A stretch of 64,000 nucleotides of DNA from Pythium myriotylum (taxonomy: Eukaryota; Oomycota; Peronosporomycetes; Pythiales; Pythiaceae), in contig JALJCQ010000012.1 in the NCBI GenBank assembly GCA_023091665.1, positions 124,001-188,000 of the forward strand, written 5' to 3'. The translations under genes and the position numbers were made by a program. Of this stretch, positions 26,107 to 55,617 are shown in pieces. Below the pieces are notes generated by a model, which searched no databases, was not told where the DNA came from, and saw nothing but the letters and a program-made list of their open reading frames with translations. Each line of letters opens with the position of its first letter. Within the stretch, counting starts at the first letter, position 1.

Positions 26107-26128
26107 GCTTCATTTCGCCCTCATTCTC
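26107..26128 (+). promoter_or_regulatory. Oomycete initiator-like site
   Basis: GCTTCATTTCGCC followed by TCATTCTC lies 11-32 nt before the ATG at 26139. It resembles the initiator seen before the GH78 gene. Confidence 0.45.
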
Positions 26129-26138
26129 AAGTGAGACC

Positions 26139-33723: not shown

Positions 33724-34107
33724 CGCCCAGCGACTATGAATCCCCCTGCGCCGGCGCACAGGGTCGCCACGCCTCGCGTGAGAGCTTCCTCCACTTGAGC
33801 GAGCTCGAGTGACAGGCTGTTCAGCGCATGGCCGCGACGGTGGGCGAAGCCGCCGTCGGCGCCATGCTCCTCTCGCTCTCGCGTGATGAACAACACGCGA
33901 GTATCGCTCAGTTCATCCAGCATGAGCTGAACGAGGCGAGAGGGAGTCTTGCAGCTCTGCGCGAGCAGAGCGCTCAACAAGCAGCGTTGTTGAGACAGCA
34001 GCAGTCTGCTGCTGTGGCGGCAGAGCGGCCTCGACGCGTCGAGCCGTTGAAGATCGAGATCTCCAAGTACAAGGCTGACGGTGACAGCCTGTTGCGTTGG
34101 TTCGTCG

Positions 34108-34903
34108 TGTGGTATAGCGCCCCGATTCCGCGGGCATGAGTTTCTGCAAGCGCTAGGTGACCGGTCAAGCGAAGGTGTCCACGACCAAGTCCCAAGGAAG
34201 TGATCAGTCTGGCGTACCCTTAGTACCCAAGTCAAGACGAAGTGAACAGTCTGGCGCCCAAGTCAAGATTCCGTATTCCAGACTCGGCGGTACAAGTTAT
34301 CGTATTTCCCTTTATTTAGAAACCTCACATAAAAACAGTAGGAGTAGGAGCCTTATACTTGACAGATTTCAGTAGGTAGGAACGGGTGCTTGCCACCCAA
34401 TAACCCACGGAAAGGGGGCGATTCTCCGCCGCTAATTCCGTGGGAGTCAGTCCACAATTTTTCCTCCTTCTCGCAGAAGCCCCCTGATTCCCCCTCAACA
34501 GTAGCCCGTCAGTATCTCGAGGAAGTTACTAAGAGTTTCGAAGTGATCAGTCTGGTCGATCGGCCGCCTGGTTTGGGTACCGTCGCGATCCGAAGTGATC
34601 AGTCTGGCCGAGGGCCGGGTGGTTTTGCCTGCGCTTCCTGCCAAGTTCCCCGTAGGAGTTCTCCAAGAGCTCCATCGTCTCCAAGCCGTTTCCTTCTCGC
34701 TGCCTCTAGACTTGTGAGGGTCTAGTTGTAGTGTCGTGTCAGAGTTCCGGGTCTCCGCTTCAAAGAAGTTGTGATATCCGGGTCTGAAGCGAGTGTTCGA
34801 AGCACGCAAGATCCACCCCTTTCCTGAGAATATTGTTGCCGTCGGTGACTCAAGAGCGAGCCTACGTATGCCAGGTGCCCGTTTTTGATTCTACCACACG
34901 ACA
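34108..34903 (+). repeat. Inner element 5' LTR (796 bp)
   Basis: No difference from the right LTR was found by eye. It contains four copies of the 16-bp motif (34197, 34239, 34540, 34592). The PBS-like TGGTGCGTATGCCAGG begins three bases downstream at 34906 and overlaps the proposed gag ATG at 34914. Confidence 0.92.
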
Positions 34904-34913
34904 ACTGGTGCGT

Positions 34914-36883
34914 ATGCCAGGAGCGGAGCCGTTAACTGTTACGATACACGGTGAGAAGATGGAAGAGAAGGCAGAGATGCGGCAAGATCAAGTCACAGAC
35001 CCGACGAATGTTTCGATCCGCCTCGTTGTTCAGAGCGCGGTCCACGACACAACTCGGGTGTACCGACTGTCAGAAGCGAACGAAATCGGTCTTCGGTATC
35101 AACGACAGGTGCTGAAGATGCCGTCCGATTCAGAATGCTGGTTTTCCCTGTATGAAATTACGAAAGTAGGGCCCACGACATTCTTTGCCGGTTCGCGACT
35201 GAGGGCGTCCACCTACGCTTCGCGACGATTGACGAAGCGATTGATTTTGTGGAGAAGATGTTGACGTCATGCGGTTACAATTTGTATCGGAGAAGCAATT
35301 ACCAAGATGCAGTCTACCTGAATCCAGAACGGATGGCGCAGGACATGGGCTACATGATGTCAGTTCTGCTTGCCGAGTATGAGTGGGAGACCAGCGTTAT
35401 CCAATATCGGGAGGAGGACACCACGTTCGAACCCAAGTACATGGTCGTTGCTGACATAGCCCACACTCCGCAGACCAAGCCTGCGAAGCCGCGCTCGATG
35501 AAACGCTTTGATGAAGAATCCAGTTCAGATGAAGAAATTCAGCTCGAGAGCCCAATTAGGAAGAAGCTGGAGTTTGCCAGTGACGAAGGATCCTTCTCCT
35601 CCCCCACGGACAAGATCAAGCGAAAGAATAACCCGCTGGCGACGAAGCTGATGGCGCTGACGGCCGGAGGGATGTTGTCGATGGATGAGTTATCAGAAGT
35701 GATACAAGCGCTGAGCCCAGATACCGCGAAGCGAGTTGCGGCCACGCGAGCCCCGGCGAAACAGACTCGAGGAGCTAAGAAAGGATTCGCGCGTCTAGAA
35801 GATTCCGAGTCTGACGACGGTGAACAGGACGAATCATCTGACGAAGAAGCACTCAAGCGCGTCAAGAAACCAGTCAAGAAGTCGAAGAAGCCAGTCAAGC
35901 GCAGCGCTCGCCATTCAGATATGGATGATGAGCTCGGTCTTTCAATGTATGAAGATTCTGACTCGGATGTGTCTGGACCTCGACGACGTGATCGACACGT
36001 GACAACGGTCATCCAGAATGTCAATGTGAAGTAGTTCAGTGGTGCCAAGGTTTTCCCGGAAGAAGCCAAGGCGTGGCTCTCGAAGTTTCTTCGCATCGCT
36101 GATCTGTCCAACTGGTCCAATCGTCAACGTCTCGGTTCGTTCGTAGACGCTCTCACGGGTCCGGCGAGGTATTGGCAGAAGCAGCTCCCTTCGTCAACGA
36201 GGAAGAAGTGGAAGCTCACGATGAAGGCCTTTTATCGAAAGTATTGCACTGAGAGCACGCCATCTACGCTCACGTACTATCGTCTAACTCAGAAGCCCGA
36301 TGAATCTGCGCTGGACTACTTCTATCGCTTTAACGCAGCAGGTCTTCGCGCGCGCATCGATTTCCGTGTAGACGATGACGATGACGAAGATCGTATCCCG
36401 GCCGATTTGAAGGATCACATTCAGCAGTTCTTCGACACGCTACATGATAAAGCTGTTCAGTCTCAATTCCGTTACAGCAAGTACAAGTCCATTGACAAGC
36501 TCGAGGAGAAGCTGGAGATGTACGAGAACTCTCAAGCGAAGCCAACACCTAAGAAGCAGGCCAAGAAGCAACCGGAAGAGAGCAATGACCCACCTCCTGC
36601 AGTCAATAATGTCAATGCAGGTCAGAGGCAGCAAGGCTCTAATGGTGGAGGTCAAGCTCATCAGACTAGCGGAAACGGCAATGAGGCCCGCTGTGAACAT
36701 TGTGGCAAGTCCGGACATACCAAGGAAAGCTGCTTCCAACTTCACGAGTGTGATTTTTGTGGAGTGACTGGTCACACGATTCAAGTCTGCCGTGCTTTCA
36801 CCGAGAAGATGAAGATGCTCAGCCCAAAGCTCAAGACCGGCGAGATTACTGTGGATGATCTCGTTCGGCAGTTAAACCGCTAG
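34914..36883 (+). pseudogene. Inner element gag, with one frameshift and one amber stop
   Basis: Starts MPGAEPLTVTIHGEKMEEK. Near 35197 the frame shifts by one base; the downstream frame continues with AIDFVEKMLTSCGYNLYRRS. Highly charged Ser/Lys/Asp linkers follow. At 36032-36034 an in-frame TAG interrupts an otherwise continuous frame (NVNVK, stop, FSGAKVFPEEAKAWLSKF). The capsid-like part and two Cys/His knuckles (CEHCGKSGHTKESC and CDFCGVTGHTIQVC) complete it. It ends at the TAG 36881-36883, next to a GTTAAAC heptamer. The protein would coat element RNA; this copy cannot make it in full without recoding. Confidence 0.85.
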
Positions 36884-36907
36884 CCCCTCAGCACTCTGCC
36901 AGTGCTG
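36871..36907 (+). promoter_or_regulatory. Probable -1 ribosomal frameshift site, inner gag-pol
   Basis: Pol lies in the -1 frame of gag, and the two overlap only at 36859-36883. In that window GTTAAAC (36871-36877) sits in the right phase (G TTA AAC). This heptamer is known as a working slippery site in an arterivirus. A 7-bp hairpin CAGCACT/AGTGCTG (36889-36907) follows after 11 nt. Confidence 0.55.
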
Positions 36908-39900
36908 TACGTGACGGGGACGTCGCGGCGACTTTGCATGTGAAGAAGATCCGGCGCAAATCGAAGAAATACCAGAAACAAAAGGCGCCTTACATTGGTG
37001 AAGAAAGTGTTCACGTGGAAAATGGAGCGAAGAAACATGAAGAAACAAGTTATGATGACACTGTGCATGAAGAACGGAACGTGTATGAAGATACAGTCAA
37101 GGATGTCACGCTACCTGCGGTGTTTGAATCGGTAGTGTCGACTGTGGATGAGAAACAAGAAGAAACAAGTGACGAAAATTGTGTATGTGAAGATGTGTAT
37201 ATGAGAGAAGCAGTTGGTGACGAAAATGAAGAGCTGCATGTGCTATTATGCCCAATTGAGCCAATTGAAGAAGGTGACGAGGGCGCTTACGACGAAGATG
37301 CTGATGGAGAAGATGTGAAGATGCCAAATGGTGCTCGAGATATATCTCTGCAAAGAAAGGTAATTCACATTCGTCTCGTTGGTGATGAACGACGAGGGTG
37401 GTGGAAGAACCACGAATTGTCAACGAACGAGAAGATTCTTGCCTTCGTGCATGGTGCTGTTGAAGGACTCGAGATTCCGTTGATGCTGGATTCGGGAGCG
37501 AACATCAGTCTGTTACACACCAACTTGGCACGTAAGTTGGGGTTGAGAGTGCGGGCGTTCGAGGACTCTAGTGAATTCTTTGGCGTGAGTGAGGAACCGA
37601 TGCAAGCACACGGGAAGGTCATGGTGAAGATCCGGCTGGGAGAGTTCGTGGTGTACGAAGTCGAGATGTGGGTGGCTGAGTTTGAAGCTCACTCGTTGAT
37701 TATTCTCGGCACCGACTTCATGATGTGCGCCGGGCTGAAGATCGACTTGGTCAAGAAGCGGTGTGAAGTGCCTGACGAGAATGCGTTGCCGCTGCTGAGT
37801 TATGATGATCTGCGCTGTGAGGCGTATGCGGCCTCGAATGACGCGGTGCGCTTGGCCGTGAGGATGCCACTCCTGCGTGGCAGTGATGTTGCTGTGCTGG
37901 TTGCTGGGGAAACCCGCCTCGAAGTGATCGGTCTGGAGTTGAGCAACGGAGAGGCCACTAAAGAGGCGAGTACGGAGCCGAATAGAATCGCGGTCACCGA
38001 AGTGATCAGTCTGGCGGAATGTCTCAACCATGAAGAGACCGAAGTGATCAGTCTGGTCCAGGGCAGAGTGGGAGAAACTGAAGTGAACAGTCTGGCGGAT
38101 GAGTGAGCGTTTTCACAGGTTTGCTGGACGGACCTCTCCCTGAAGATCTGGATCAGTCGAAGTTTGCAAGAGAAGTCTACGTCCATGAACGGGTAGAGAT
38201 GTCAGTTGAGAGGATGAAAGAGCAGCTTGCGTTGCTACCTGAGTTTGACGAAGTCCCGCCGGTGGAAGTCGACATGAGTGAAGCTGACATCGGCGACGAG
38301 GAGACGACGGACGAAGAGATTGAAATGATCAGAGAAACGTTGGAAGCAAGGTCCGCTAGCTTTATTGGCTCCGGGAACGCTCTACCGCCGCCAGCGAAAG
38401 GAGTCGTGTGTGACGTGGACGTCGGGGACGCGAAGCCGATCGCTCAAGCCGCGAGACGAGTGCCGCCGCACCTGCTGGGAAGATTGTATGAGTTACTGCG
38501 CGGCCTTCTCCGACAAGGTTTGATAAGATATTCGAACTCACCGTGGGCATCACCGATCGTCATTGTGCTGAAGAAGAACGGGAAAGACATCCGCCTTTGC
38601 ATCGACTACCGTCTGGTGAATGGACTAACGAAGCTGATGGTGTACGCGATGCCGCTGATAGATGATCTGCTCGACAATTTTGAAGGGATCATGTGGTTTT
38701 GCTCCTTGGATTCTGGGCTGTACCTTTAACGGTCCGCGCGCGACTTGTGACTGCTTTTATCTGCCCGCTCGGACACTTCGAATGGACGAGGATGCCTCAA
38801 GGGTTGAAGAATGCCCCACAGATCTACCAGCGCATGATTGATAACGCGCTGTGGAGCATGGTGAGACGACTCAGCAACCGTGATGTGAGATTCAAGGCTG
38901 TCGGGTGGACGGAGGACGAGTTAGATGACATGGAGGCCCAACGAGAGAAGGAGCGCATCGACATTGACGTACCGCTGAAGCGAGACGTATTTCATCGAGG
39001 TGAGCCACAGGAGTCGGATGTACTGCCGGTGATCAAGCGCCGATCATACATTGATGATATCACCTTTGGGGCAACGACGTGGTCGGAGATGAACGTGATG
39101 CTGCAGTGTCTGCTCGACGCATTTCAATACTGGGGAGTGACCGTGAGTTTGCGGAAGAGTTCGTTTGGAAAAAAGTCAGTTGAGTTCCTCAGTCACGTGG
39201 TCTCGCGAGAAGGGTTGATGAGCGCCCCAAGAAACCTCGAGTCGATCAGGCAGATGCCGTTTCCGTCGACGCAGAAAGGCTTGCAGCGATTCATCGGAAG
39301 CCTGATCTATTACCACAAGTTTATCAGCAACTTCGCGACTTATGCGGCAGTCCTGTATGAAGTCACTGACCTGAGACTGAGAGATGGGAGCCAGCTTGAT
39401 CATGCAAAGAGGGCCTTCGAAGAACTGAAGATGAAGCTATGCGACGCGCCTCTTCTGCGCTATGTTGAACGCGGACGAGAGCTTGTCATAGTGCTGTACA
39501 CGAACAAGTGGGCTTTCGGAGCATCAGTCTGCCAAGAGCACGACGGGATTCTACATCCAGTTCGATTTGTTAGTAAAGTTTTCAAGGATGCAGAGACTCG
39601 GTATACGCCTGCAGAACAAGAAGTGTTAGCTCTGCTGACGACGCTCCACGTCGCGAGTCACTAGCTGCTCGGCCAACCGATTGTAGTGTACGCGAGATAC
39701 TCTACCATGAAGTGGATCTTCACGTCGAAGAGTCTGACCGGTCGTACCATCCAGTGGGCCGCCATGTTGTCGCCATGGAACTTGACAATTATTCGAAGCG
39801 ATGAGACTCCTGCCGGCTTGATGGCAGTGTTGACAGCATCGATAACACCTGCAGAACAAATGGATGCAATACTCGAAGACATCGCGCCGATGAAGACCAT

Positions 39901-42538
39901 TAAAGATGTACCGGTCATTAGACCCTTCCCTGATCTACGAAGAAATGCAGACGGACACGTGCTCACGTTCGATGGGGCAGTCAAGTTGAAGAATACCCGG
40001 TCTGGCACGTTTGGTATGATCCTATGGAAACTGCCTGAGTGGAAGGTGGTTGCCGCGGAATATGATGTGAAGGAAGGGCTTACCGTGAACGACAGTGAAT
40101 ACCACGGCCTGCTCGGCGCACTCGAATTGGCAACGACGCGGGGTATCAAGGAGGTGCTCGTGTGTGGCGACTCCCGCCTGGTGATCGGACAGATAAACGG
40201 TGACCTTCGGTGCAATCAAGCGTCGCTACAAGTCTGGCTGAATCGGGCGAAAGAGCTACTCACCTTGTTCGACAGTGTGAGTTTCATTCACATCGCGCGC
40301 AAGTACAACCAGGCGGCAGACTTCCTCACCAGAGAGGCCATGCGGTCTCAGTCGAGAGGTTCGGTCACGGATGATGCGCGCTTGCACGACTTGGAGCTCT
40401 TGAACACTCTCCCGGAGCTGTTGTACCGCGTGGACGATGAACACGTGTGCGAGGGAAAACCTGAGGCGGAATCGGGGGCCACTATAATGGTAAGGCGAGT
40501 TGATCAGTCTGGCCACAAGGTCGAGCCAAATTCAGATCAACTGATCAGTCTGGAGTCGACTACCGCCCGTACAGAGCCAAGTGAACGGTCTGGTGAAGAA
40601 TCGCAGTCAACGTTGGACGAGATGAGTGAGCTCGCGCCAGTCAGAGTGGTTAGCGGTAGCCAGATGGCGGGATTGCATGATGGGCCAAGCTACGAAGTGT
40701 TTGTTGTCGACACGAGGAAGCGGACGAAGTCTAAGAAGGAGAGCCACTCGAAGAAGCAAAAAGAAGCGTCGAACGCAGCTGACATTGGGACATTCGAGGA
40801 TGATGGATCGAAGCCGGCCAGAGAATGGACACCATTGCATGTGAGTGGGGAGATGTTAAGTCAAGATCAGGTGGAGAGGTTCCGACGCGTGGCGGCAGCG
40901 CAACGCCGAGATGAATGGTGCAAGCAGGTAATCGCGTATCTCGAGGGCAATGAAGAGGAGTTCTCTTCGTCAACCGCGCTCAAGCGGGTAGCGCGGATCG
41001 CTGTCCTATATGTGCTCGACTCAGATGGGGTGTTGTACTACTCCCCTCAAGGAGAGAAATCGGAAGCTTTGAAGATGCGATTGGTAGTGCCCGACATTCT
41101 GCAGAAAGATTTATTATGCGCCTATCATGAAGAACTCGGGGCTGGTGCGCACCAAGGTGTGGGGCGTGTGTTCGAGCGAATGCGCCGTCTATACTACTGG
41201 AGAGGCATGTGTGCGGATGTAGAATGGTATGTTGCCTCGTGTGAAGACTGCGCCACTGCGAAGGGCAAGCCCCGATACAAAGGTCGATCCAGTGGCAATA
41301 TTGTCGCGACCAGACCATTTCAGGTGCTCGCTATGGATTTCGCGATTCCCCTCCCCAAGACGTACAACGGAAATGAAGCCATGCTCTGTTGCATTTGCCT
41401 CTTCTCAGGTTTTGTGATTCTCATTCCGATGGCCGATACGACAGCGCAATCCGTTGCAGAGGCGTATTTGAGTGGGATGTTCAAGCGATTTGGGGCCCAA
41501 GAAATGATTCGACACGACCGCGACCCGCGCTTCATGAGTTCTGTGTTCAGACGATTCAACCGCATGATGAATCAGAAGCAGCGCCCGACACTAGCTTATC
41601 GACCGCAAGCGAATGGAAAACAGGAACGTTCTGTGCAAACTGTGGTGAGGGCGATCAAATGCTACATTGCTGATGCGGAGCAGAAGGACTGGGATGAATA
41701 TGTTCAGCAGCTTGAGTCGGCCCTCAACACGTCAGTGAGTCTACAGCACAAGCAGACTAGTTTTTATCTGGTGCATGGCTGGGATGCACGAACGCAACTA
41801 GAAGCAGCGATTCCCCCCAAGGATGGCACGCTCAAGGAACGAAATGCACTTGAATGGCGGCAGAAAATTGCAAAGCAGCATGAACAAGCTCAAGCGCACG
41901 CCGAATTTATTCAGCAGAAATTAATGGAAGAACGTGCGAGGAAGAACAACGAGCAGGCTGACGAGAATCTGCAGTTGACGGTGAGAACGGAGTATCAGCC
42001 AGGTGAGCTTGTGTGGCTGTATCACGTTTTGGTCAAGGAAGGACTCGTGAGGAAGCTATCGCACCTGTGGCATGGTCCATACCAGATAGAAGAGCGTGTC
42101 AGTGAGTCGGTGTACAAGCTAAAGTTCGATCGGAGCGAGAGTCAAGTCATGCCGATGATCCATATCTCCCGGCCCAAGCCATTCGTCTCAAGGATGCGGA
42201 GGCCACGTGAAAAGATTGAGAGCATTCAAGACCTCGAGTTGGACGAAGCTCTATTGCCTGACGATTCGTGGTACGAAGAAGGTGTTGATGACGAATATGA
42301 GGTGGAGAAGGTGGTCGACTGCCGATATAAGAAGCGGACGAGGAACGGTAGACGAATGCGCGAGTACTTGATCAAATGGGTCGGTCACGAGGAGCCTACA
42401 TGGGAGCCGGAAGAGAATCTACACTGCAACGCCCTGCTATACGAGTTCGACGCAAGACGGGCATGGGAGAACCGCAAGGAAGCCGCTCAAACTACTCATG
42501 AAGAAGAGGTCGATGAGAGTGATTCGAGTGACGAGTAG
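36884..42538 (+). pseudogene. Inner element pol: protease, RT, RNase H, integrase, chromodomain (broken)
   Basis: The -1 frame after gag encodes an acidic linker and an aspartic protease (LMLDSGANISLL, near 37480). The frame changes at 38103 and again near 38700, where RT motif A (FCSLDSG) is followed by a shift of frame, apparently a small deletion. RT continues with MPQGLKNAPQIYQRMI and YIDDITFGA. An in-frame TAG at 39662 splits RT/RNase H. From 39686 the frame is open to 42538: RNase H, integrase zinc finger (H-H-C-C, about 41130-41260), DDE residues in MDFAIPL, RHDRDPRF and KQERSVQ, and a C-terminal chromodomain (EYLIKWVGHEEPTWEPEENL). The element class is certain; this copy is not autonomous as read. 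Confidence 0.88.
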
Positions 42539-44545
42539 AGAGTGACCTGGCGAAGTGATCAGTCTGGTGTGAGAAGGTGCTCGACGAAGGGACCAAGTGA
42601 ACAGTCTGGTCGGAGCGAGGTCACAAGAGCGAGGGGACGAGACTGAAGGTGCGCAGCGAGGCGATGCGGAGCGCCGCGATTGAAGGTGAGATGTTGAGGA
42701 AAGGAAGACGATGAGGAGAAGGAGAAGAAGAAAAGAGCTGAATCGAAGTACAGCTCTATACCGACCTGACGCGGATCGAATACGTGGTGAGGTCAAGTTC
42801 TGGGGTTGAAAGGTGGATCGAACCCACTGTGCAGCCCTGCGATGGAACCCGGCGCCGGGGGCCCAAGTTGGCTGCGGAATGCTGAGGTGCGGACCCGAGT
42901 TGGTTGCACAAGAAATCGCGAAGTTGACATGTGATGAACAAGTTTCAAGGGGGCTACGTTTTGTGGTGATCGCATTCTGCCGTGGGTATGCGGCGAATGC
43001 ACCGAAATTGAATATTGTAACGTTGACATGGAAGCTACAAGCCTTAGGCGGTGCCAGTGCACTGGGTTGACCGAAAGGGGCTACGTCTTGACACGGAGAC
43101 TGTCCGGTGAGACGACAATTGAGGTGATGTGGTGGGCGAGGTGGCGAGTGAAGCGCATGTTTGGAATCTGGCTGTCTGATCAACTACCGGACGAAGAACA
43201 GAAGCGAGCGCTCGCACGTGTCAGCGAAAGTGGTGATCTGCTGTTGAGCCTGATCAGCGAAGCAGTATGGGACGTTGACCACCCCTGTCGTAGAAGCCTT
43301 AGAAAGAAACGAGAGAGTTAGGAGGACTCGGAGCGGATCAAACCCGCCGAGAGAAACAAGCGAGTTGAGACGGTTTGACGCGGACTGAATCCGCCAAGAA
43401 GCCGCGGCGTTGTCGAACTGAAGGGCTCATTCGAGTGGATCAGTTTTGATGCGCCGGTTGAGAAGGATGAGGTGACGCAGCTGAGAGAAGAGAGAAAGCG
43501 TGTGTGTATGTGCGAAGAAAATGATGAAAATGAGGTGACTGATGACAAGCGAGGTTGGTGGATGAGAAGCCCGTGCACCAGAGAGGAACGAAGCGGTATG
43601 GATGTCAGAGAGGAAGAGCGCAGCTTTGTAGTGTGGCGCGGCATGCGTGGATGACGTGAAGGTGACTGGGGACGACTAGGGCGAAGCGCGGTGACGAATG
43701 GCGCCGGTGGCAAGAGACCTGTTTGGTTGATGAGTGATGGGACTTGGTTTTAAATACTGGCCCCAAGGAAAGCGAAGTGATCAGTCTGGCCAGGCCTGTT
43801 AGGGATCGGTCTGGTCGGTTTTGGTGAAGTGATCAGTCTGGTCACCGTGAGGGGAAGGATCGGTCGAAATCGGTGTCTATGACGGTGAAACGCAAGTGGA
43901 GGAGCAGAAACGGTCTGTGAACATGGCTATTCGTCTTATCCGAATGATGGCAGCGCCTATGGGTACATGTCTGCTGCAGTCGACAACGTCTTGACAGAGC
44001 GCGGGTGGAGCTGGCATGGAGGGTGAGAAAAAAGCGTTAGCAGCCGTCAACAAATCGATGTTCTTCGCCGACGATAATTACCTTGGACGACGTTGAGGGA
44101 CGGTGTGAACTTGGAGCACAAGCGGGAGTGATCATGGAAGGAGACGGCAGTGTTGGTGTAGGCAGAGAATGAGCGGCGGGCTTGGCGCAGCAAGGCGGGT
44201 CGGGAAACCTCATGTTTGATCGAGAAGTGAGAGAGGCGGGCCTTCCAACCACCTCAGCCAGAAGACCAAGTACGCACCGAGGAGTCCGTACGAACCTAAC
44301 GGTCCCAGGCGAAGTGATCAGTCTGGTGTGCGAGGAGAGGACCCTAGAAGGGAAGTGATCAGTCTGGCCGGTGAGGGCCCCAGCCACGACGTCTCAGGAC
44401 GTATAAGAACGTATAAGAAGGGGGGAGCTCAATTGGGGTGCCAAGAAACATTCACTACAAGCAGAAGAATCGAGTGAGTTGAACAGTCTGGCGGAGATAC
44501 CCCACCAAGGTCGGCGCGAACTGATCAGGTCTGGCGGGCGGAACA
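42539..44545 (+). other. Inner element: region between pol and SANT ORF
   Basis: Two kilobases with no convincing long sense ORF and at least nine copies of the 16-bp motif. A short sense frame up to 43321 (RMFGIWLSDQLPDEEQKRAL, then SGDLLLSLISEAVWD) looks protein-like and may be the remnant of an extra ORF. Confidence 0.5.
44401..44420 (+). promoter_or_regulatory. Possible internal promoter (tandem TATAAGAA)
   Basis: GTATAAGAAC and GTATAAGAAG in tandem, followed by an initiator-like ATTCACTACAAG near 44450 and the SANT ORF start at 44546. The order TATA-Inr-ORF suggests a separate transcript for the accessory genes. Confidence 0.35.
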
Positions 44546-46093
44546 ATGGCAGCTGGCATGAAGCGCAAGCGTGGGACTGACAAGGGCCAGGTAGAGGGCG
44601 CAGACGAGGGGCGGCAAGACACAATCGAGACGCGGCCTGGAATTGAAGGAGAAGCTACACGGCAAGGTACGCATCAAGAAACGCCACTGCCCTCGACTTC
44701 CGCTCGACACACGGCTCAAGATGAAGGAGATACTTCTGTCAACCCGTCAAAAAAGCTCGCTCGTGCCGGAAGCCAAGTTGAAGCCCCTGCTCGTTCGGCC
44801 TCGAAGAAGAGTGCTGGCTCACACTGGCCGGAAGGGCAGCTCAAGACGTTACGCGTCCTGTACGAACTGAAAGACCGCAACAAGTGGACGTGGGACCGGT
44901 TCGCTGAGGAATTCAACAAGATCAACGAAGTTACTGGACACCCATTGCGTGATGCTAATGCCTGCCGAGCTCGCTGCCAAAGAGATCCAGAGTTGAGGAA
45001 GAATACAGAGCCCAAGCTCATCAAGTGGACACCTGAGCAAGAAGCGTTTCTGACTGCGGAGAAGAAGGCGAAGACCTCGAACCGAGACATATATGCGAAG
45101 TATCTTGATAAGGTTCAGGCTCACGGGTGGGCATCTCGAGAATACAAGACGGTGATGACCAAGCTTTCCAGCATCTCAGAGCGAGATTCGAGTCGCAAGA
45201 GCAACCGTTCAAGCGACCAGGGGACGGCCACTGACCGACAAACGCTGACTATGGCGCGCCGAGTATGGCATCCCGACGAAGACGCCGTATTAATGAAAGC
45301 TCTACACGCGCATAAGGACGAGGGCGCAGCTATATGTCACGAAGCGATACAGAGCGAGCTCCTGGCCCTCGGAAAACGAGATGGAGTACCCATTGGTGAC
45401 CGCACCATTGTGGCCATCAATAAACGACTAAATACTTTACGCGATGGGAAGCCCGAGACGACGAAGCTACCCAGACGGTGGACGGACAAGGATGATCGAC
45501 AGATTCGTCTGGCTATGAAGCAGAAGAAGCGGAAGCGCGGGCAAGCGATTAGAGAACTCTCTGCAGCTTTAGGAGTCTCCGAGTTTGCTGTGCGTCGTCG
45601 TTGGAAGGAGCTACGCGCCATCGACGGGGAGGCCGATAGTTCGGCGGAAGAAAAAGGGGCCAATTCTGGTCAAAGAACCCCCGCGGAGTGTGAATCAGAC
45701 CAAGACGATGCTGCCCAGCTGGAGAAGATTGTTGCACCCTCGGAATATACGATACCAAGTGCAGAGTTGGCCGAGACGTTACTGGCCCTGCGATCCGACG
45801 ATGCTGATGTCGAGAGTGTCGCGGAGAGTGGAGACGAGATCCCGTTCGAAGGTGTGAGTGAAGAGCCAGCTGACGACGCACCAGTGAATGACCCAGCCAG
45901 ATTTGATGAGGAAGATGTCGACCTTGCCGTGGCGCAAGCTCTTGGTGAGGTGACAGCCATCGTAGAATATTGCAGCCAGCAAGCGAGTGAAGGGGCGAAG
46001 CAAGGCGCAGACCAGGGGATAAGCGACCAAGCTGAGAATCCGTCGACGGACGTGGAGCCAGAAGACGTTGCCAGAGTGATAGACGCGGGCTAG
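44546..46093 (+). CDS. Retrotransposon-borne Myb/SANT-like DNA-binding protein (four repeats)
   Basis: 515 codons starting MAAGMKRKRGTDKGQ. After a basic, low-complexity N-terminus there are four helix-turn-helix blocks with Trp at the first position, as in Myb/SANT repeats: HWPEGQLKTLRVLYE (about residue 92), IKWTPEQEAFLTAEK (158), RVWHPDEDAVLMKAL (239) and RRWTDKDDRQIRLAM (310). Each is followed by two more helices. An acidic C-terminal half follows, with the look of a transactivation or protein-contact region. The frame stops at TAG 46091 but stays open beyond it. Such an ORF is not part of standard Gypsy elements. It may bind the 16-bp motif repeated in the same element; that is inference. 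It has no introns and its own possible promoter at 44401. Confidence 0.72.
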   Translation: MAAGMKRKRGTDKGQVEGADEGRQDTIETRPGIEGEATRQGTHQETPLPSTSARHTAQDEGDTSVNPSKKLARAGSQVEAPARSASKKSAGSHWPEGQLKTLRVLYELKDRNKWTWDRFAEEFNKINEVTGHPLRDANACRARCQRDPELRKNTEPKLIKWTPEQEAFLTAEKKAKTSNRDIYAKYLDKVQAHGWASREYKTVMTKLSSISERDSSRKSNRSSDQGTATDRQTLTMARRVWHPDEDAVLMKALHAHKDEGAAICHEAIQSELLALGKRDGVPIGDRTIVAINKRLNTLRDGKPETTKLPRRWTDKDDRQIRLAMKQKKRKRGQAIRELSAALGVSEFAVRRRWKELRAIDGEADSSAEEKGANSGQRTPAECESDQDDAAQLEKIVAPSEYTIPSAELAETLLALRSDDADVESVAESGDEIPFEGVSEEPADDAPVNDPARFDEEDVDLAVAQALGEVTAIVEYCSQQASEGAKQGADQGISDQAENPSTDVEPEDVARVIDAG

Positions 46094-47253
46094 AACCTCG
46101 AGGAAAGCGCCAGTGTGATCGGAGGAACTACCGGAGAGGCGCCAGCGCTCAGAGAGACGGAGGCTCACGAACCGCAGGCCCCTGGGGGAAATGCGAGCGA
46201 AGGTGCTACGGACGGAACACCTCCAACTCAAGCGCATGGAGGCGGACCGGCAGAAACAGAGGCCGACGTCCCGATTGCTCAAGCTTCGCCCAAGGCTATC
46301 GAAGTTTCGGCCCACGCACCCGAAGTGATCAGTCTGGCTACCCCATTAGTGGGCGGTGAAGACGAAGTGAACAGTCTGGAGAATCTACACAAGCTGAAGT
46401 GAACAGTCTGGCGGAGGTAGCGAAGGCAACTAACTTGGTCGACCTTTTAGTGGACCCTCCATCTGGAGTGATCAGTCTGGCCGAGGAACCAGTCGTCAGT
46501 CGAAGCAAAGTGAACAGTCTGGCCCCCTCCGGGGAGTGCGTTCCCTCCAGCTTGGAAGACCGCGCCGTAGAGAACAGCGAAGGTGAACCTCACGAGACCC
46601 GAGAACCTCAAGACCTATCACGCGGCACGCCGGCAACAGGAGAAGACGAAGTGGAGTGGGGAAGTGGGCATGGTGGCGCACCTCAACACATCACGGTCAG
46701 AGTTGCTCCAGACAAGCCAAGGAAGGTTCTCTCAGCAGACACATGCGGTTACCTGAAGGCAAGCGACCTCGCACCAGACTCCAAGCTGAGGACGTTCTAC
46801 AAAGATAGTGAGCAGCGTGTGTAGGATATGATTGAGGACGGCTTAGACAAGATGCGTCTTCCCGATGGCCCGCCACCCGCTGTTGACAAGTGCGTGCTGA
46901 GAGAACTGATGCTGGCCGGAACAATCCTCTCGCGTGGCGAGGAATCGCGCACAATATTTCTGAGGGAGATGTGGACAGACAAGTACGGGGAATGTCGTGA
47001 CAAAGACTGCTGCTTGTCATATGATGTGAACAGCCCGCATTTCCAGTATGAAGGCGAGTGCAGACATTGGCGATACTTCAAGATGCGGCGAGTCAACTTC
47101 GACTGCTTCACAAGCACGAGAGATTATCTGCTGGCGGGTGCACTTGCGACGCATCCCGAGATGCTCTACGCTACTGAGGCCCCCGAACTACCACACATCA
47201 AACGCGATGGGAAATGCGTCCGGTTGAGGCTCTCGGGGGGGCGCGATGACTAA
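46094..47253 (+). pseudogene. Linker ORF between SANT and helicase ORFs, broken
   Basis: The SANT frame continues after TAG 46091 to a TGA at 46400 that is created inside a 16-bp motif. The -1 frame then continues (again reading the motif as EVNSL) to 46822 TAG, and after that to TAA 47251. Content: acidic, Pro/Glu/Thr-rich repeats with EVISL/EVNSL, then a Cys-bearing segment (GECRDKDCCLSYDVNSPHF, then YEGECRHWRYFKMRR). Because the motif is read as the same peptide on both sides of 46400, a one-base indel in a formerly continuous ORF is likely. It overlaps the helicase ORF by eight bases (ATGACTAA). Confidence 0.6.
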
Positions 47254-49270
47254 CCGGATGTCGGAAGAGTGGCCGGGCAACGGTACGGACACTGACGAAC
47301 AAGGGAATGACGGAGCAAGATCAGTGACCCATCTCCAACCTCTGTTGTGCTTCATGACTACACTATACCTGTCTCTGGACATGACCACTGACCAGCAAAT
47401 CTGTGAAGCACAACTCTCACCATGGGATTACGGCGTGGTGGTAGCAGGCGAGAGATATCTGCACGAGCGACAGGTTTTGGGTCGAGGGGTGTTGATGAGG
47501 TCCGGGTCTCGATGGTTCGTAGTCACCAACGCACGTATCACGTCAGCACAGCCAAGCAGACTCGATTTAATGTGGGTCCCGAGGACAAGTTTACTGAACT
47601 ACGTGCGACGTTTCCTGGCGATAGACCAAGCGGCATCGCGACCTACGCCGCTCGTCACAGCGCTTGCCATGCGGGACATGCATCAGAAGGAACGCCCGCG
47701 ACCTCAACAGACCCGAGCGAAGAGAGTGAGGATGTGGACGAAGTCGCTATTTCTGAGACCAAGCCAAATGAGAGTGGTCGAGGAATTTGTTACGAAGACT
47801 GGCATCATGCTAGTGCGCGGCCCGTTTGGCTGCGGCAAGACGACGACATTGACGCGCGCGATATCTGTCCACCGTGAGGCGTACCCCAAGGAAGTGATTG
47901 CAGTCGTGTCTGAAACGAATGCCGCGATTGATGAGGACCTCCGACGGCTCCGGCAGAAAAACCTAGTGCCCGAAGACGAAATATTGAGGCTCGGGAAGTG
48001 TGATGCTCACATGCAGGAGTTTGCAGGGATCTACATCGACGAACTCATGAAGAAGAGACGGGTGTTAACAGAACGGATATACCCTGACCGGCCCGACATG
48101 ATGGCATCCGAAATGAAGAAGTACGAAGATCATTTGCTAGCTCGAGCGAAGGTCCTTGTCGCCACATTAGCGACGATAGGGAGTGCGAAATATCAGCATC
48201 TAGCGAATCACGTGGTGATCATCGACGAAGGCGCGCAGGTTGCGGAAGCCGCGGTGATCCAAGCTCTTCGCGAAGATACGCACACGCTGCTACTAGCAGG
48301 GGACCCCAATCAGCTGCGGGGGTACAGCTCGCTGCCGACAAATTTCGCTGAGAGGTTCCCTGGCGATGAGAGACGGCACAAGCTCAATTGGTCTGTGTTC
48401 CACACGTTCGAGCATTGTTACGCGTCTTACGGCATGAAGTTCCCGGGGCTAACGACGGAAGACATTTTTCGGTGTGGACCAGAATTGGTGACACTATTGC
48501 AACCCTTTTACGACTACCCGCTGCGCTCTGCTATCAGCAACACTCCAGGATATCTAGTTGGGATGCTGCTACCGCCTCTGCAGGATGACGCGAGTTGGTC
48601 TAGGGATGGAGTCGAGAACGGACCGCCCCTGCCTCGAGGACCGTCTGCAATATGGCTCGACTCGGGCAACGGAGGTTTTCACCCCGACGGGCGACGGAAA
48701 TCTGCGAGCGAGGAGAAGTTTGTGAACGTGATCGAACAAGCGCTGGTGATGGAACTGATCATGCGGATCAAGGCGCAACTCAAACTGCAATCCAAGATGA
48801 CGCACAGAGTGTGGCGCAAGAGTATCCTAGTTATCTCCCCTTACGCGGAGCAGGTCAAGAGATTAAAGGAAGACGCTCTACAGTGGAAAAATCTCTACGA
48901 GAATTTCCTAGACGTAGAAGTGAAGACTGTGGACTCGAGCCAGGGGTGCGAAGCTGACATTACGATCACCTCGATGGTGCGTCACGTGAAAATGGGATTC
49001 TTGAAGAATAACCCCTCGCGACTGCTGGTGTCCCTGAGTCGTGCCAAGGATTACATGTTCGTTCTCGCAGATGACCAGACTCTCGCTCAAGACAGCACGT
49101 GGGCGAAATTCCGCCAACAAGCGATTGACATGAGGATCACGTACGGGAGGTCGAGATGGACGCCGGAGGAAGCTGGCGCTGTGTTGAAGGACAAGGACCA
49201 CATGAGGAAGCTGGCCAGCGCTAACGACTCGAGAGTCATTGGCGACGTCCAAGGCGCAGTGCTGCTGTAA
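47246..49270 (+). CDS. Retrotransposon-borne UPF1-like SF1 helicase
   Basis: 674 residues, intact. Motif I is GPFGCGKTTT (about residue 192), motif II VVIIDEGAQVAEA (about 326), motif III LLLAGDPNQLRG (about 353), motif V VDSSQGCEADITITS (about 562) and motif VI LLVSLSRAKDYMFVLAD (about 597). These are the SF1B motifs of the UPF1/SEN1/MOV10 group, RNA/DNA helicases that move 5' to 3'. The N-terminal 180 residues are not recognised. The ORF overlaps the preceding linker ORF at ATGACTAA, so it may be translated by re-initiation, or it may once have been fused. Helicases of this kind are not standard cargo of LTR retrotransposons. It ends 62 bp before the right LTR. Confidence 0.88.
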   Translation: MTNRMSEEWPGNGTDTDEQGNDGARSVTHLQPLLCFMTTLYLSLDMTTDQQICEAQLSPWDYGVVVAGERYLHERQVLGRGVLMRSGSRWFVVTNARITSAQPSRLDLMWVPRTSLLNYVRRFLAIDQAASRPTPLVTALAMRDMHQKERPRPQQTRAKRVRMWTKSLFLRPSQMRVVEEFVTKTGIMLVRGPFGCGKTTTLTRAISVHREAYPKEVIAVVSETNAAIDEDLRRLRQKNLVPEDEILRLGKCDAHMQEFAGIYIDELMKKRRVLTERIYPDRPDMMASEMKKYEDHLLARAKVLVATLATIGSAKYQHLANHVVIIDEGAQVAEAAVIQALREDTHTLLLAGDPNQLRGYSSLPTNFAERFPGDERRHKLNWSVFHTFEHCYASYGMKFPGLTTEDIFRCGPELVTLLQPFYDYPLRSAISNTPGYLVGMLLPPLQDDASWSRDGVENGPPLPRGPSAIWLDSGNGGFHPDGRRKSASEEKFVNVIEQALVMELIMRIKAQLKLQSKMTHRVWRKSILVISPYAEQVKRLKEDALQWKNLYENFLDVEVKTVDSSQGCEADITITSMVRHVKMGFLKNNPSRLLVSLSRAKDYMFVLADDQTLAQDSTWAKFRQQAIDMRITYGRSRWTPEEAGAVLKDKDHMRKLASANDSRVIGDVQGAVLL

Positions 49271-49332
49271 AAAAAGGGTGATCCAGGTGTGCTCGCTCTT
49301 CTTCGCGGTGCTGGAGCTTCGCAGGGGACGGC

Positions 49333-50128
49333 TGTGGTATAGCGCCCCGATTCCGCGGGCATGAGTTTCTGCAAGCGCTAGGTGACCGGTCAAGCGAAGG
49401 TGTCCACGACCAAGTCCCAAGGAAGTGATCAGTCTGGCGTACCCTTAGTACCCAAGTCAAGACGAAGTGAACAGTCTGGCGCCCAAGTCAAGATTCCGTA
49501 TTCCAGACTCGGCGGTACAAGTTATCGTATTTCCCTTTATTTAGAAACCTCACATAAAAACAGTAGGAGTAGGAGCCTTATACTTGACAGATTTCAGTAG
49601 GTAGGAACGGGTGCTTGCCACCCAATAACCCACGGAAAGGGGGCGATTCTCCGCCGCTAATTCCGTGGGAGTCAGTCCACAATTTTTCCTCCTTCTCGCA
49701 GAAGCCCCCTGATTCCCCCTCAACAGTAGCCCGTCAGTATCTCGAGGAAGTTACTAAGAGTTTCGAAGTGATCAGTCTGGTCGATCGGCCGCCTGGTTTG
49801 GGTACCGTCGCGATCCGAAGTGATCAGTCTGGCCGAGGGCCGGGTGGTTTTGCCTGCGCTTCCTGCCAAGTTCCCCGTAGGAGTTCTCCAAGAGCTCCAT
49901 CGTCTCCAAGCCGTTTCCTTCTCGCTGCCTCTAGACTTGTGAGGGTCTAGTTGTAGTGTCGTGTCAGAGTTCCGGGTCTCCGCTTCAAAGAAGTTGTGAT
50001 ATCCGGGTCTGAAGCGAGTGTTCGAAGCACGCAAGATCCACCCCTTTCCTGAGAATATTGTTGCCGTCGGTGACTCAAGAGCGAGCCTACGTATGCCAGG
50101 TGCCCGTTTTTGATTCTACCACACGACA
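49333..50128 (+). repeat. Inner element 3' LTR (796 bp)
   Basis: Copy of 34108-34903; no difference was found by eye. Preceded by a purine-rich GCAGGGGACGG that could serve as the polypurine tract, and followed by the second GTCG of the target duplication. Confidence 0.92.
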
Positions 50129-50844
50129 GTCGAACTCGACGATTCCATTGAAGCCCGTCGCATCGATGACGATGCGATGCGAGTGACCTACGCCATCTCC
50201 AACTTGGCAGGTCGTGCCAAGGTGTGGGCGCTCGGCCTCAAGTTGCACGATCCGTTTTGCTTCGGATCGTATGAAGAGTTCAAGGCCAAGATCAAACAAG
50301 CGTTTGAGCCGCCTCGAGCCGAGTTCAGGGCTCGTGCTGAGTTTCTGGATCTCAGGCAAGGTAAGCGTGATATTCACGCTTACGCCCAGCACGCACGATA
50401 CCTCGTGAGTTGCATCGTGGATAATCCCATCGATGATCAAACGCAGGTTGCTGCGTTTATCAAGGGGCTCGAGGATGGGCCGATCAAGACCCAGATGTTC
50501 CGTCTCGAGTTTGATAAACTCGAGGACGCGATCTCGGTTGCTCGCCAAGAGGACTTCAGCCTGCGACAGGCTTATGTCCATTCTGCTGCTTATCGTCCGT
50601 CCAGACGACAAGACTCAAGTGATCGAGAGGCCATGGATCTTTCCTACGCTGAGAGCGAGCAGCGCTCTCGCGTGGACAAGCGATTGCAGAAATGCAATCG
50701 ATGCCAGAAGACCGGGCATTACGCTTATGAGTGTAATGCTGCGCGCCCAGTGCCTCGCGGCAATGGACGCGGTCGCCACGTGGACAAGAAGGTCCAGTGG
50801 TCGGATCAACACGCTGCGAAGAAACAGCAGCGTGATGATCAACA

Positions 50845-50888: not shown

Positions 50889-53800
50889 AGTCACGTCAAG
50901 AGAGTTTGTGGGACTCTTGACGAAGGCTGCTCCTAAAGCACAGTCTCTGTGCTTCGCCACACCTGGTGATGATGAGGCCCTCATCACCTTGGAGCTCGAA
51001 GTCGAAGGCGCTTCGTCTTTGCTTCGCGCCCTCGTCGACTGCGGGACGTCGAGACTTTGGGGCTCGACTTCGTCGAGCGAGACATTCCTCCGACGAGGAT
51101 GACGGTGCGCCTTGCAACTGGCGCAACGGTGAAGGTTATGAAACGCGTAGTGTGCCTCCACTACACGCTTGAAGGCAATGAGTACGACGACGACTTCGTC
51201 GTACTCGATCTAGATGACAAGTTCGACGTCATTCTAGGCCTGCCATGACTTCGTTCACACGAGCCATGGATCAGCTGGCGGCATCGATCCGTTACGATGC
51301 CGGCCGCTCGGTCATCAGGTGGCCACCTGATGTCGGTTCTGGAGCGTCCAGATGCACGTGGACTTGTGAAAGATGAGTGTGATGGCCTCATCAGTCACTC
51401 GGTCGTTAGTACGACTGCCCAAGACTACGACAAAGAGTCGACCTTTGTCGTCGAGCCAGCTGCCGGGGTCTGCGTAGAGTCGCAGACAGCGCCGAAGACT
51501 TCTCGCGCGAGTGAGTCGCACGAGTCAAGTGAGGAAGATCCTCGTGCGAATAAGTCGCACGAGCCAAGAAGACAGTGCTTGCCACAGGGGCAGCACTACG
51601 AGAGGAAGGTCTCGACGTCTGCCGCAAGGAGGCAACGTCGACTCTCCGCCTCGACTAGAACGTCGAGCGATGGAGATCTCGCTGCAGTTGCGCAACTGCA
51701 GCTCGAGGAGTCTGCGCGCATAAGGCCGCAGGAAGTCACTGAGACGATCAGCGTCTTAGTCAATGACGGCACGAGGGTGGGTGCATCCACACTCGAGGTC
51801 GTTGCGCCTCCGAAGTCAACTTCGGAGATCACCGCACTGCCTACGCTTGAACCCAAGCGGTTCTTGCGAGATCTGCGTCAAGGAAAGATCACGCAGATCT
51901 GTATTCTCGTCGCGGAGGACGAATGTGTGACCGATATCCGGTCGGCAGTGGTGTTTGCTGAGAAGGAACGGCTTCTCAGCAGCTCATCGATGGACGAGAG
52001 CGTCCTCGATGAGAAGACTCGGATTGAGCGGTACTCGATGAGTCGCTCAAGGGAAATCCTCTCTACGAGGATTTGGTCGAATTCGCGGATGTGTTCCCCG
52101 AATCCGTGCCGTGCGAATTGCCGAAGGACAAAGGCATTCGGCACGAGATCGACCTGATGCCAGGTTCGAAGTACTGTGTCATGAAGCAGTGGCCACTGCC
52201 TCGTGAATAGGTCGAAGCGATCGACAAGTTCTTCGCAGAACGTCTCGCTGCTGGCCATGTGAGGGAGTCTACCTCCCCTCACAGCTCTCCGACCTTCTGT
52301 GTGCGCAAGGCAACAGGAGGGTGGCGGATTGTACACGCGTTCAGCAAGTTGAACGCGGCGACGATACCGGCACAAACGCCGATACCGAGGAAGGACGTGA
52401 TCATCGACGGGATGGCGAAGAGCACCATATTCTCGTCGATGGATCTGATGGATGGATTCTATCATATCTTGATGCGTGAACGGGATATTCCGTTCACGGC
52501 CGTCAGCACCACAAGCGAAATGGTCTGGCAGTGGTTGGTAATGCCCCAGGGCCTCAGCAACGCACCAACAATAGATGCGTCTCGCATCTATTGCGCCCAG
52601 TGCGAGCTTTCGCACCAAGCTACTTCGACGATGTCTTCGTTCATAGCCGAGCTATGGACGGGAAGACTGATCTGGAGGTCTACAGACTCCACATCAGAGA
52701 GGTTCTCACACTTATGCGAGAGCATAAGCTGTACGCGAACCTGAAGAAGTGTATCTTCGCGGCCAGCGAGATACCCGTTCTTGGGTGTATAGTCGGCAAG
52801 AACGGCGTGCGCCCTGATCCCGAGAAGATCGGAGCGATCAAGGAGTGGCCGACGCCACTCGACGTCAAGCGACTGCGCAAGTTCCTTGGCCTCGCGGCGT
52901 ACTTGCACATGTACTCGCGCAACTACGCCGAGATGACTGTTCCTCTTTCTCGATTGCTCAAGAAAGATATCAAGTGGACTTGGAACGCTGAGTGTCAGCG
53001 TTCCTTCGAAGGTATTAAGCAGAGCTTGATTGAATCGCCAGTTCTAGCGATCGCGGACCAGGACAAACCATTCCACGTGGTTTGTGACGCAAGCGACTTT
53101 GCCATCGGCGCAGCGCTGATGCAGTTCGACGATGACGGCGCTGAGCACGTCGTCTGTTACCAGTCGCGTCAGCTGCAACCAGCTGAGCGTAATTATCCAG
53201 TGCATGACAAGGAGCTCCTTGCCATGAAGTATGCACTGGCCAAGTTCCGCGTCTATCTGCTTGGAGATAGACCGTTCAAGGTCTTCACAGACCATGCGTC
53301 CTTACGCACGGCTGTGAACAGCCCACACCTCTCGCAGCGCATGGCGAGGTGGCTGTCTTTCTTCGCGGAGTATAACTTCTCCGTCGAGTACAAGCCCGGA
53401 CGACTCAACGTCGTCGCGGAAGCTCTGTCCCGTCGGCCAGACTTTGAGCCGACGGTCGTCGCCCAAGATTCGCTGAACGCAGCAAGTGCGTTCAGCTCCA
53501 GTGTTCCGTCGTCGACCCTGCTCGACGACATTCGTGCTGCGAATGCACACGACCCCGAGGTCGTGCGCTTGATGGCCTACCTTGCAGAGCCATTGCCGCA
53601 AGCGCTGAAGGGCTTGCCGGCTTCGTATCGATCGAAGGTCCATCGATACACGCAGCAGAGCGGCCTGCTGTTCTACAGCGCCGTTGCCGACGACACTCCG
53701 CGTGTCGTCGTGCCAGGAGATCATGATCTGCGCCTGCGGATCATGTACGAGTACCACGATGCTCCAGTGAGCGGACATCGTGGACGTGAGAAGACATATC

Positions 53801-55617
53801 TCACGTTGAGTCGCGACTTTTATTGGCCTCGCCAATTCAAGTTCGTGCGCAAGTACGTCCGTGCTTGCGAGTTTTGTCAGCGAGTGAAGTCGGGACCTTC
53901 ACTTCGCGCGCCGCTACAGCCTCTGCTGGTACCGACAGAGTGCTGGGAGTCCGTCTCCATGGACTTCATCTTCGGGTTTCCCGAAGATGACCAGAAGAAC
54001 AACGGGATCCTCGTGTTCGTGGATCGTTTCAGCAAGATGGTGCATCTTGCTGCAGTTCCAGAGACGATCACAGCCGAAGGCTGCACTCGCGTCTTCGTCG
54101 ACACGGTGTTTCGACACCATGGACTGCCACGAGCGCTCGTGTCAGATCGAGATCCACGGTTCACCGCGGAGTTCTGGCGCGCCGTGTTCCGTTCCCTCGG
54201 AACACGAATCAAGGTGTCAACCTCTGACCATCCTGAGACCGATGGTCAGACAGAGCGCGCGAACCGCGTGATCGAAGAGATTCTTCGAGGCTACGTCCAC
54301 TCGTTCTCGAGTTGGAGTGAGTTTTTGCCGATGGTCGAATTCGCCATCAACAACTCTGTGCATGCGTCGACGACGCATACACCGTTCTACGTGAATGGTC
54401 TCCGCCATCCCCGCATCCCAACCCTTTTGGAGAGTGAGTCTCCTTCAGGGGAGGGAGGGACTCGCTCGAGCGAGCTCCCGGACCGCTCTCGCTCCTCGGA
54501 GATCGACGTAATGGTCGATCCTCCCACCGATGACGCTCCAGTCATCGGTCGCGCTCGTGAGAACGACGACGACGACGACGATGAGGCCGACAACGCGCTC
54601 GAAGTCGATGATGACGACTTCGACGGCGACGAGAGCGATGGCACTCTCGTCGAAGAAGAGATGGACATCTCAGCAGCGCGCGACGTGCGCGCTGCTGCCA
54701 AGCAAACAGAGTCAGCAGAGGACTTCCTGCTGAAGCGCCAAGCGGTTGTCCGCTTCGTACAGGACTCGGTCGCCCATGCGGTCGATCGACAGAAGATGAG
54801 CGCAGACAAGAATGGAAGAGGAAACACTCTTTCATTTAATGAAGGTGACTTAGTGTTGTTATCAACGACTACACTACCTACACATGCAGTTACCAACGTC
54901 GGTAGCAACAAGCTGCTACCGAAGTTCATCGGTCCGTTCCGCGTGCTCCGCCGCATGGGGCACGCGTATACGCTTGAGCTTCCTCGTAGGATGCGGACGC
55001 ATCCTACGTTCTACGTTGGTCGCCTTCGTCCGTACCATCAGTACAACGGCGCTTCCGAGCAATCGGAATCCCCGAGCGCTCGAGAGTCCCGAGGAGAAGC
55101 TTGTACTCCCGGACAAGCTTGTTCAACTCCGCTTGAACACGGTCGTGTGAGCCCCGCAGCCTCGCCAGCTGCGCCTCCAGTCGCACTTGCTGCGACCGCT
55201 CCTCCGCAAGATCCGCGCGGAGACGCTCCTGTGCAAGCTGGAGCCGAAGCCCATCAGCATCGTCGCGACGAGCCGAGTACGACTCGTCGCGTTGAAGATA
55301 CGACGGCGCGGCCGGTGGATGGTGTCTTCCCACCGCCGCCGCCCCCACTGGTTGACTCCAGTGGTGCTGAGCGCTGGATCGTTGAGCGCCTGCTGAATCA
55401 TAGGGATCAGCAGGGCGGTAATCGAACGAAGTACCTCGTTCGATGGCGCGGCTATCCGAGATCTGCAGATAGCTGGGAGCCGCGCGAGGCTCTCCTCGAA
55501 GATGTCCCGGGTCTCGTCGCTCAGTACGACGAAATCCACCCGCTGCGTAAGGCGGCGAGGAAGCAGCATGCTCCTCGCTCGCGCGGCGGCGCTCGTAGAT
55601 TTGCTCGAGGCCTGTAA
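50851..55617 (+). pseudogene. Outer element pol: protease, RT, RNase H, integrase, chromodomain (decayed)
   Basis: Pol enters in the -1 frame. The protease active site is VDCGTSR, followed by an apparent deletion and frameshift near 51050. An in-frame TGA is at 51246, a frameshift near 52040, a TAG at 52208 and a frameshift near 52567 within RT. From 52531 the frame is open to 55617 and encodes RT motif YFDDVF, RNase H (FHVVCDASDFAIGAALMQF), integrase (zinc finger, then MDFIFGF, DRDPRF, and E in DGQTERANR) and a C-terminal chromodomain (YLVRWRGYPRSADSWEPREA). The last 600 bp overlap an antisense ORF. This copy cannot make functional RT as read. Confidence 0.9.

Follow-up and report, generated by a model that had tools for sequence, protein, structure and literature searches.

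A Ty3/Gypsy retrotransposon of about 16 kb carries a SANT-helicase coding region after pol together with an array of a short motif private to its family, and three sister families of the same genome combine diverged SANT regions with private motifs of their own. The signal resides in the DNA, and the motif sites compared vary less than the sequence around them. On balance, we lean toward regarding this system as a counterpart, among retrotransposons, of VANC/VANDAL self-recognition: the SANT-helicase protein of a Chronos-type element would read the tag of its own family. VANDALs are DNA transposons, and to our knowledge VANC-type self-recognition is known from DNA transposons only. A single genome with four families, in each of which a diverged tag is matched by a candidate reader, offers a natural series on how protein and site change together, which bears on how elements tell their own copies from relatives and counter silencing.

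Anatomy of the element and its motif array

The element occupies positions 34108-50128 of the window, i.e., the whole 64-kb stretch of DNA analyzed, and is bounded by 796-nt LTRs with no mismatches between them. A Gypsy element of about 16 kb with gag-pol and SANT-like and helicase ORFs had been proposed in a first-pass annotation, and the LTRs and both ORFs (44546-46093 and 47246-49270) were confirmed. Its features are as follows.

34104..34107 (left) and 50129-50132 (right), no strand: target site duplication GTCG, flanking both LTRs
34108..34903, + strand: 5′ LTR, identical to the 3′ LTR, with TG..CA ends; motif sites at 34197, 34239, 34540 and 34592
35156..36883, + strand: gag region, its open frame interrupted by a stop; PF03732 (E 2.5e-6) in 36035-36880
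36859..42538, + strand: pol (protease - RT - RNase H - second RNase H [RVT_3] - integrase - chromodomain), in four adjacent or overlapping frames
37921..38095, + strand: cluster of four motif sites within the ORF of the protease, at 37921, 37999, 38041 and 38080, in a single reading frame
40497..40593, + strand: three motif sites, at steps of 41 and 40 nt, in the linker between the second RNase H and the integrase, where a single ORF carries them in two frames
42552..42609, + strand: motif pair with 42-nt spacing 3′ of pol (motif scan)
43774..43841, + strand: motif pair with 52-nt spacing and a degenerate site in between (motif scan)
44311..44491, + strand: motif sites 44311, 44352 and 44476, 5′ of the SANT ORF (motif scan)
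44546..46093, + strand: SANT/Myb-like ORF, 515 aa, corresponding to the N-terminal part of the SANT-helicase frame in other copies
46322..46522, + strand: five motif sites in the SANT-helicase linker (motif scan)
47246..49270, + strand: superfamily-1 helicase part (AAA_11/AAA_12), from Pfam and solved-structure comparison
49333..50128, + strand: 3′ LTR, 796 nt; motif sites at 49422, 49464, 49765 and 49817

The pol frames matched PF13650, RVT_1, RT_RNaseH, RVT_3, Integrase_H2C2 and Chromo in Pfam, with rve slightly under its cut-off. The second RNase H after RT_RNaseH (RVT_3, PF13456, E 8.3e-19) and the chromodomain C-terminal to the integrase (PF00385, E 2.2e-10) are the two traits, dual RNase H and C-terminal chromodomain, described for the Chronos Ty3/Gypsy elements of oomycetes, whose second RNase H, of aRNH type, adjoins the original one (PMC5348765). 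As judged from this domain composition, the window element is of the Chronos type. It differs in its SANT-helicase region, as the words helicase and Myb do not occur in the available text of the Chronos paper (PMC5348765).

Identity of the LTRs points to a recent move of this copy. Gag and pol are interrupted, as is the SANT-helicase frame, so that its own protein was unneeded for that move, which fits an action in trans; presumably, proteins from other copies drove it. Judged by eye, the insertion appears to have landed in a gag ORF that belongs to a different Gypsy element. A second Gypsy pol at 52531-55617 (+), with a chromodomain and no RVT_3 match, probably belongs to the element that received the insertion, and no comparable motif array was found for it.

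Motif 1, GAAGTGATCAGTCTGG, had 28 matches at ≤3 mismatches in the 64-kb window (shuffled-sequence expectation: mean 0.61, largest 2). All but one outlying match at 7504 lie inside the element, and all 27 are on the + strand, i.e., in the RNA sense. Two degenerate sites, at 43799 and, with an extra base, near 44519, bring the total to 29, which agrees with the approximately 29 copies of a 16-bp motif announced in the first-pass annotation. Their reported presence in both LTRs and in the interior also held, with four sites per LTR and the rest across the pol, noncoding and SANT-helicase regions.

The sites often come in spaced pairs. A pattern of ATC..AAC pairs that allowed 31 spacings yielded 107 family-1 pairs, which are copies of few site classes and not independent, and none in the control; among 100 listed pairs, 84 were at 42 nt, 13 at 39, 2 at 41 and 1 at 53. 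One step in the SANT-helicase linker measures 42 nt in other copies but 32 nt in the window copy, which has lost 10 nt there. The pairs show a favored spacing rather than helical phasing. Phasing was rejected as an explanation: R was 0.63 at 10.5 nt (27 spacings), but the best period was 9.7, with p 0.027 for unique spacings. In a comparison of 17 copies, each of the 10 sites included varied less than its flanks (0.035 versus 0.098, permutation 0.002), in a test biased by the choice of sites in one copy and including one copy, L046, that aligns poorly (74%).

An open frame joining SANT-like repeats and a helicase

The SANT-like protein and the helicase had been annotated as separate products, the latter intact. 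Both parts are present, but in four other copies (three on contig C22 and one on C15) they belong to one 1586-aa open frame devoid of stops, in which the SANT and helicase matches are a multiple of 3 apart. In the window copy, stops and frame shifts split this frame, and the helicase ORF represents its C-terminal part.

The description of the first part as a four-repeat Myb/SANT protein was upheld to a limited extent. A single-sequence structure model of the SANT ORF arranged its helices in about four triplets, of which only the last was confident, and the Pfam Myb/SANT-type matches in this ORF were all under cut-offs (best PF13921, E 0.0084, 16.7 bits versus 22.9). The fourth repeat was modeled as three helices with pLDDT block means of 86-92 over residues 11-50. 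Its top Foldseek match was 2lr8 (prob 0.97, E 0.22), and many homeodomains were among the 50 matches listed; no match of the SANT fold comparisons had an E value below 0.001, and a query of solved structures with the SANT ORF returned none. Purifying selection acts on the SANT repeats: dN/dS was 0.14-0.34 in eight of nine pairs and 0.81 in one pair with 15 changes. Elsewhere in the frame, it was 0.26-0.94 for the linkers and 0.23-2.04 for the N-terminus.

The helicase core (AAA_11/AAA_12) matched PF13086 (E 3.3e-26) and PF13087 (E 4.6e-21). The core thus bears out part of an earlier assignment as UPF1-like, but by solved structures the protein is nearer to Sen1 than to UPF1, the nearest being 8ftm ('5'-3' RNA helicase-like protein') and 5mzn (Sen1), ahead of ZNFX1 and UPF1. 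Named protein matches include the IGHMBP2 type, and by sequence the helicase could equally be IGHMBP2-like rather than Sen1-like.

In protein searches with about 8,000 candidates scored, the SANT ORF gave no match, and the family-2 protein gave 14 matches, which contain helicase domains and reach a coverage of 27% at most. For the helicase, P0015 was the one good homologue (34% over 79%), next to 29 that were weaker. P0015 is a 995-aa protein of a public collection that resembles the helicase part and retains the MTVIVP peptide of family 3; it suggests the existence of such proteins in another organism.

Sister families and their tags

All family comparisons were made within the single genome searched (58.7 Mb, 55 contigs), for which the Chronos-type element and a Crinkler domain suggest an oomycete origin. 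Searches with the SANT and helicase parts located three sister families of the window element's family (family 1), each with SANT and helicase parts downstream of pol. In the copies from which families 2 and 3 were read, no 5′ LTR was found, and the family-4 copy used has a deletion. Their integrases are 59-85% identical to that of family 1, and the SANT regions are 24.5-29.4% identical across families, with two of the six pairs spanning only ~70 residues. SANT similarity was not above shuffles for families 1-3 (Z -0.7) and 3-4 (Z 1.9), and the kinship of these SANT parts is thus drawn from their position before a related helicase. The tags of the four families are 12 to 17 nt long.

Family 2 is found on C22 at about 816-829k, with a rearranged copy, 97-99% identical, on C3, and encodes gag-pol frames and a SANT-helicase region. 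Its motif, roughly GAGTTARCACTCTG, differs from motif 1 at 3 of 16 positions and forms three pairs, all at 42 nt, plus one single site. The sites occupy three regions, namely the linker from RNase H to integrase, the one from SANT to helicase, and an LTR-like end; family 1, too, has sites in all three. Family 1 spacings there are 41/40 (pol linker), 42 (SANT-helicase linker) and 42 or 52 (LTR), and those of family 2 are 42, including a pair of its own in the second RNase H-integrase linker. Among sites chosen by similarity, position 6 is G in 27/27 family-1 sites and T in 7/7 family-2 sites, and position 11 is G in 27/27 and C in 6/7, respectively. Raw recurrence in family 2 was 7 copies versus Markov maxima of 4-5, and control stretches gave 5-13, partly simple or palindromic words. 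As recurrence by itself is insufficient, we called this tag because the three pairs match at up to 24/26 bases and because of the regions in which they lie. A genome-wide pattern of motif-2 shape had 8 matches, 2 in family 2 and 6 unexplained, against 1 in the control.

Family 3, on C26 at about 1720.8-1731k, comprises pol from RNase H onward and a SANT-helicase frame of 1469 aa, with the end of the helicase beyond a stop. Motif 3, YGATCACTGTCAT, has 23 sites at ≤2 mismatches on both strands, with five pairs 51-52 nt apart. A search of the whole genome for the pair pattern found 17 occurrences (control 0). The C26 copy and a similar copy on C30 account for three each, and most of the remaining 11 have one spacer in common. 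Family 4 (C1:664-670k) has an integrase and a SANT ORF adjoining a helicase remnant. Motif 4, TATTGGGTATGCCCAGC, is present there as four perfect sites, 67, 65 and 63 nt apart, and its 10 genome matches at ≤1 mismatch (C1, C13 and C30; control 0) are all beside integrase loci of 61-83% identity.

The tags were compared among families. With one element per family and ≤3 mismatches, motifs 1, 3 and 4 had 27, 20 and 4 sites in their own family and none in the other three. Motif 2 had 4 family-2 sites and also 22 family-1 sites, the latter because motifs 1 and 2 differ at so few positions. Relaxed counts exceeded those of 40 first-order Markov sequences, with 8 in family 2 (mean 0.65, max 3), 23 in family 3 (0.68, max 3) and 4 in family 4 (0). 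Genome-wide, motif 1 had 414 matches at ≤1 mismatch and the reversed pattern none; 30 of these loci were fetched, and the 8/8 aligned to the element were pieces of family 1. Near the 28 more distant integrases (42-47%) on contigs C1-C15, exact motif 1 was found within 8 kb of none, and a helicase match within 12 kb was absent in 26.

The first-pass annotation had predicted that the motif and the SANT ORF would occur and diverge together. This was observed across the four families of one genome, but diverged SANT remnants on C9 and C1, 46-64% identical, still adjoin motif-1 sites. The tag thus changes more slowly than the protein. No convincing array was seen at the diverged SANT remnants L054, L055 and L057, at the helicase loci L066 (C9) and L067 (C13), or in the 2 kb after the integrase on C31 (L070).

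Some of these loci contain other repeats. Near the diverged helicase of L067, a palindromic word around GTGTAAATTTTACAC occurs three times (9040, 9101 and 9280), and 4455-4595 is made up of tandem units of about 41-42 nt; either is possibly the tag of another family. A word resembling GTCTCCAAGTTCA recurs about five times at 8856-9520 near the helicase of L066, a weak pattern. In C22:647000-805000, eight family-1 integrase copies follow each other in runs, in both orientations and with steps of about 21.4 kb, which suggests a segmental array.

The reading frames of the coding sites indicate the level at which the signal operates. The family-1 pol ORF reads the tag as VDQSG, QLISL or SERSG, and family 3 reads it as DDSDR-like or MTVI peptides in its SANT-helicase frame, with sites on both strands of pol. 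In both families, coding-DNA tags are in two frames of one ORF. Such use of two frames, together with both strands in family 3, indicates a signal in DNA, not in the peptide. A peptide-level function of the tag (EVISL/EVNSL) was ruled out by the two frames within one pol ORF and the two strands in family 3, and the strand mix also ruled out an RNA-only signal for family 3. The family-3 coding site MTVIVP may be protein-driven, perhaps, because the peptide is also kept in the homologue P0015.

Candidate self-recognition and its alternatives

Downstream of pol, the Chronos-type group encodes a single long protein in which SANT/Myb-like repeats, putatively of helix-turn-helix type, are joined through a variable linker to a probably Sen1-like helicase. 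The family tag is arrayed over LTR, pol, noncoding and SANT-helicase DNA, often as spaced pairs. On the proposed model, the SANT part, probably the reader of the tag, would bind it in double-stranded DNA through its repeats, and the array would gather the protein on copies of its own family. Sen1-type enzymes remove RNA paired to a locus, and the tethered helicase might act there on RNA or R-loops, perhaps with that same effect. Both in cis and in trans, this would keep copies of the family expressed despite silencing by small RNA or chromatin. That LTR retrotransposons independently evolved the VANC logic, with a self-encoded SANT-helicase reading a private tag throughout the element, coding sequence included, reader and tag changing together and each family having its own expression channel in the face of host silencing, is a broader proposal, to which we would give a little less than an even chance. 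The outcome of the predicted reading may be activation or anti-silencing, a point we hold more tentatively still. In Phytophthora, small RNA and H3K27me3 are involved in silencing of some genes, and 6mA occurs (PMC12781887, PMC6211444, as far as the available text goes).

The SANT-helicase might instead read the tag for replication, marking element RNA, cDNA or preintegration complexes rather than chromatin, for packaging, strand transfer, nuclear entry or avoidance of self-insertion. The RNA-sense orientation of 27/27 family-1 sites and the kinship of the attached helicase with RNA helicases speak for this role, but the presence of family-3 sites on both strands excludes a simple single-strand RNA reading there, and such numerous scattered sites are unusual among packaging signals. 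We consider it unlikely. The tags could also be sites for host factors, such as enhancer, insulator or silencer proteins, family differences merely tracking element divergence. Fixed pair spacing is typical of host DNA-binding factors as well, and SANT remnants of about 60% identity retain motif 1. Against this, the 8/8 motif loci checked (of 30 fetched from the 414 matches) are family pieces, motif 1 is within 8 kb of 0/28 distant integrases, and two particular positions consistently distinguish family-1 from family-2 sites. We regard host readers as rather improbable.

Most doubtful, in our view, is that the tags are passive family-specific repeats, comparable to those inside other Gypsy elements, that spread by slippage or template switching and have no reader. 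Mean spacer identity is slightly over chance (34% in family 1 and 37% in family 2 versus 27% expected), and plant Retand elements carry family-specific tandem repeats of unknown function (PMC11963269, in the available text). However, the repeated unit here is the short site and not site plus spacer, the 42-nt spacing is favored, sites are less diverse than flanks, and those in coding DNA are in several frames.

Self-recognition through a SANT-helicase remains our preferred reading, and other element proteins offer points of comparison. TnpA of the DNA transposon En/Spm similarly binds many short sites on its own DNA, but these are subterminal. For VANC proteins of Arabidopsis VANDALs, motif binding and loss of methylation are demonstrated and targets differ between families (PMC5735166, in the text available, as for the statements on VANC that follow). 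The likeness consists of an element-encoded protein, a short motif repeated over its own copies, and related families with different targets and diverged proteins (PMC5735166). Nevertheless, VANC proteins carry DUF1985/DUF287, with no helicase mentioned, and VANC21 sits in noncoding regions (PMC5735166), whereas the window protein is a SANT-helicase and some sites of its family lie within coding DNA. Both binding and hypomethylation have been established in the case of VANC (PMC5735166); for the present system, binding and relief of silencing are predictions. No Pfam match to DUF1985/DUF287 at E≤1 was obtained in the SANT, linker or helicase frames. On present evidence, the window system works like VANC but is not a member, as protein family and element class differ.

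In a search confined to the literature, with few subscription papers, the parts of the papers available disclosed neither a SANT-helicase retrotransposon nor LTR elements whose reader and tag diverge together. The Retand group, plant Gypsy elements that carry TRP28 ORFs, shares with the window element a long region between pol and the 3′ LTR, an extra predicted DNA-binding ORF and family-specific tandem repeats, but their ORFs are antisense and of another domain, and a link between protein and repeats is not described in the available text (PMC11963269). Insect retrotransposons have an accessory superfamily-1 helicase in common with the window element, but it is of viral type, and the accessible part of that report does not describe DNA-binding repeats or motif arrays (PMC6338049).

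Outside the element, the window holds two adjacent ADP-ribosylglycohydrolase ORFs (PF03747) at 23860-27137 (+) and, at 59965-61941 (+), an ORF with a Crinkler N-terminal domain (PF20147); a similar stretch directly precedes the family-2 element on C22.
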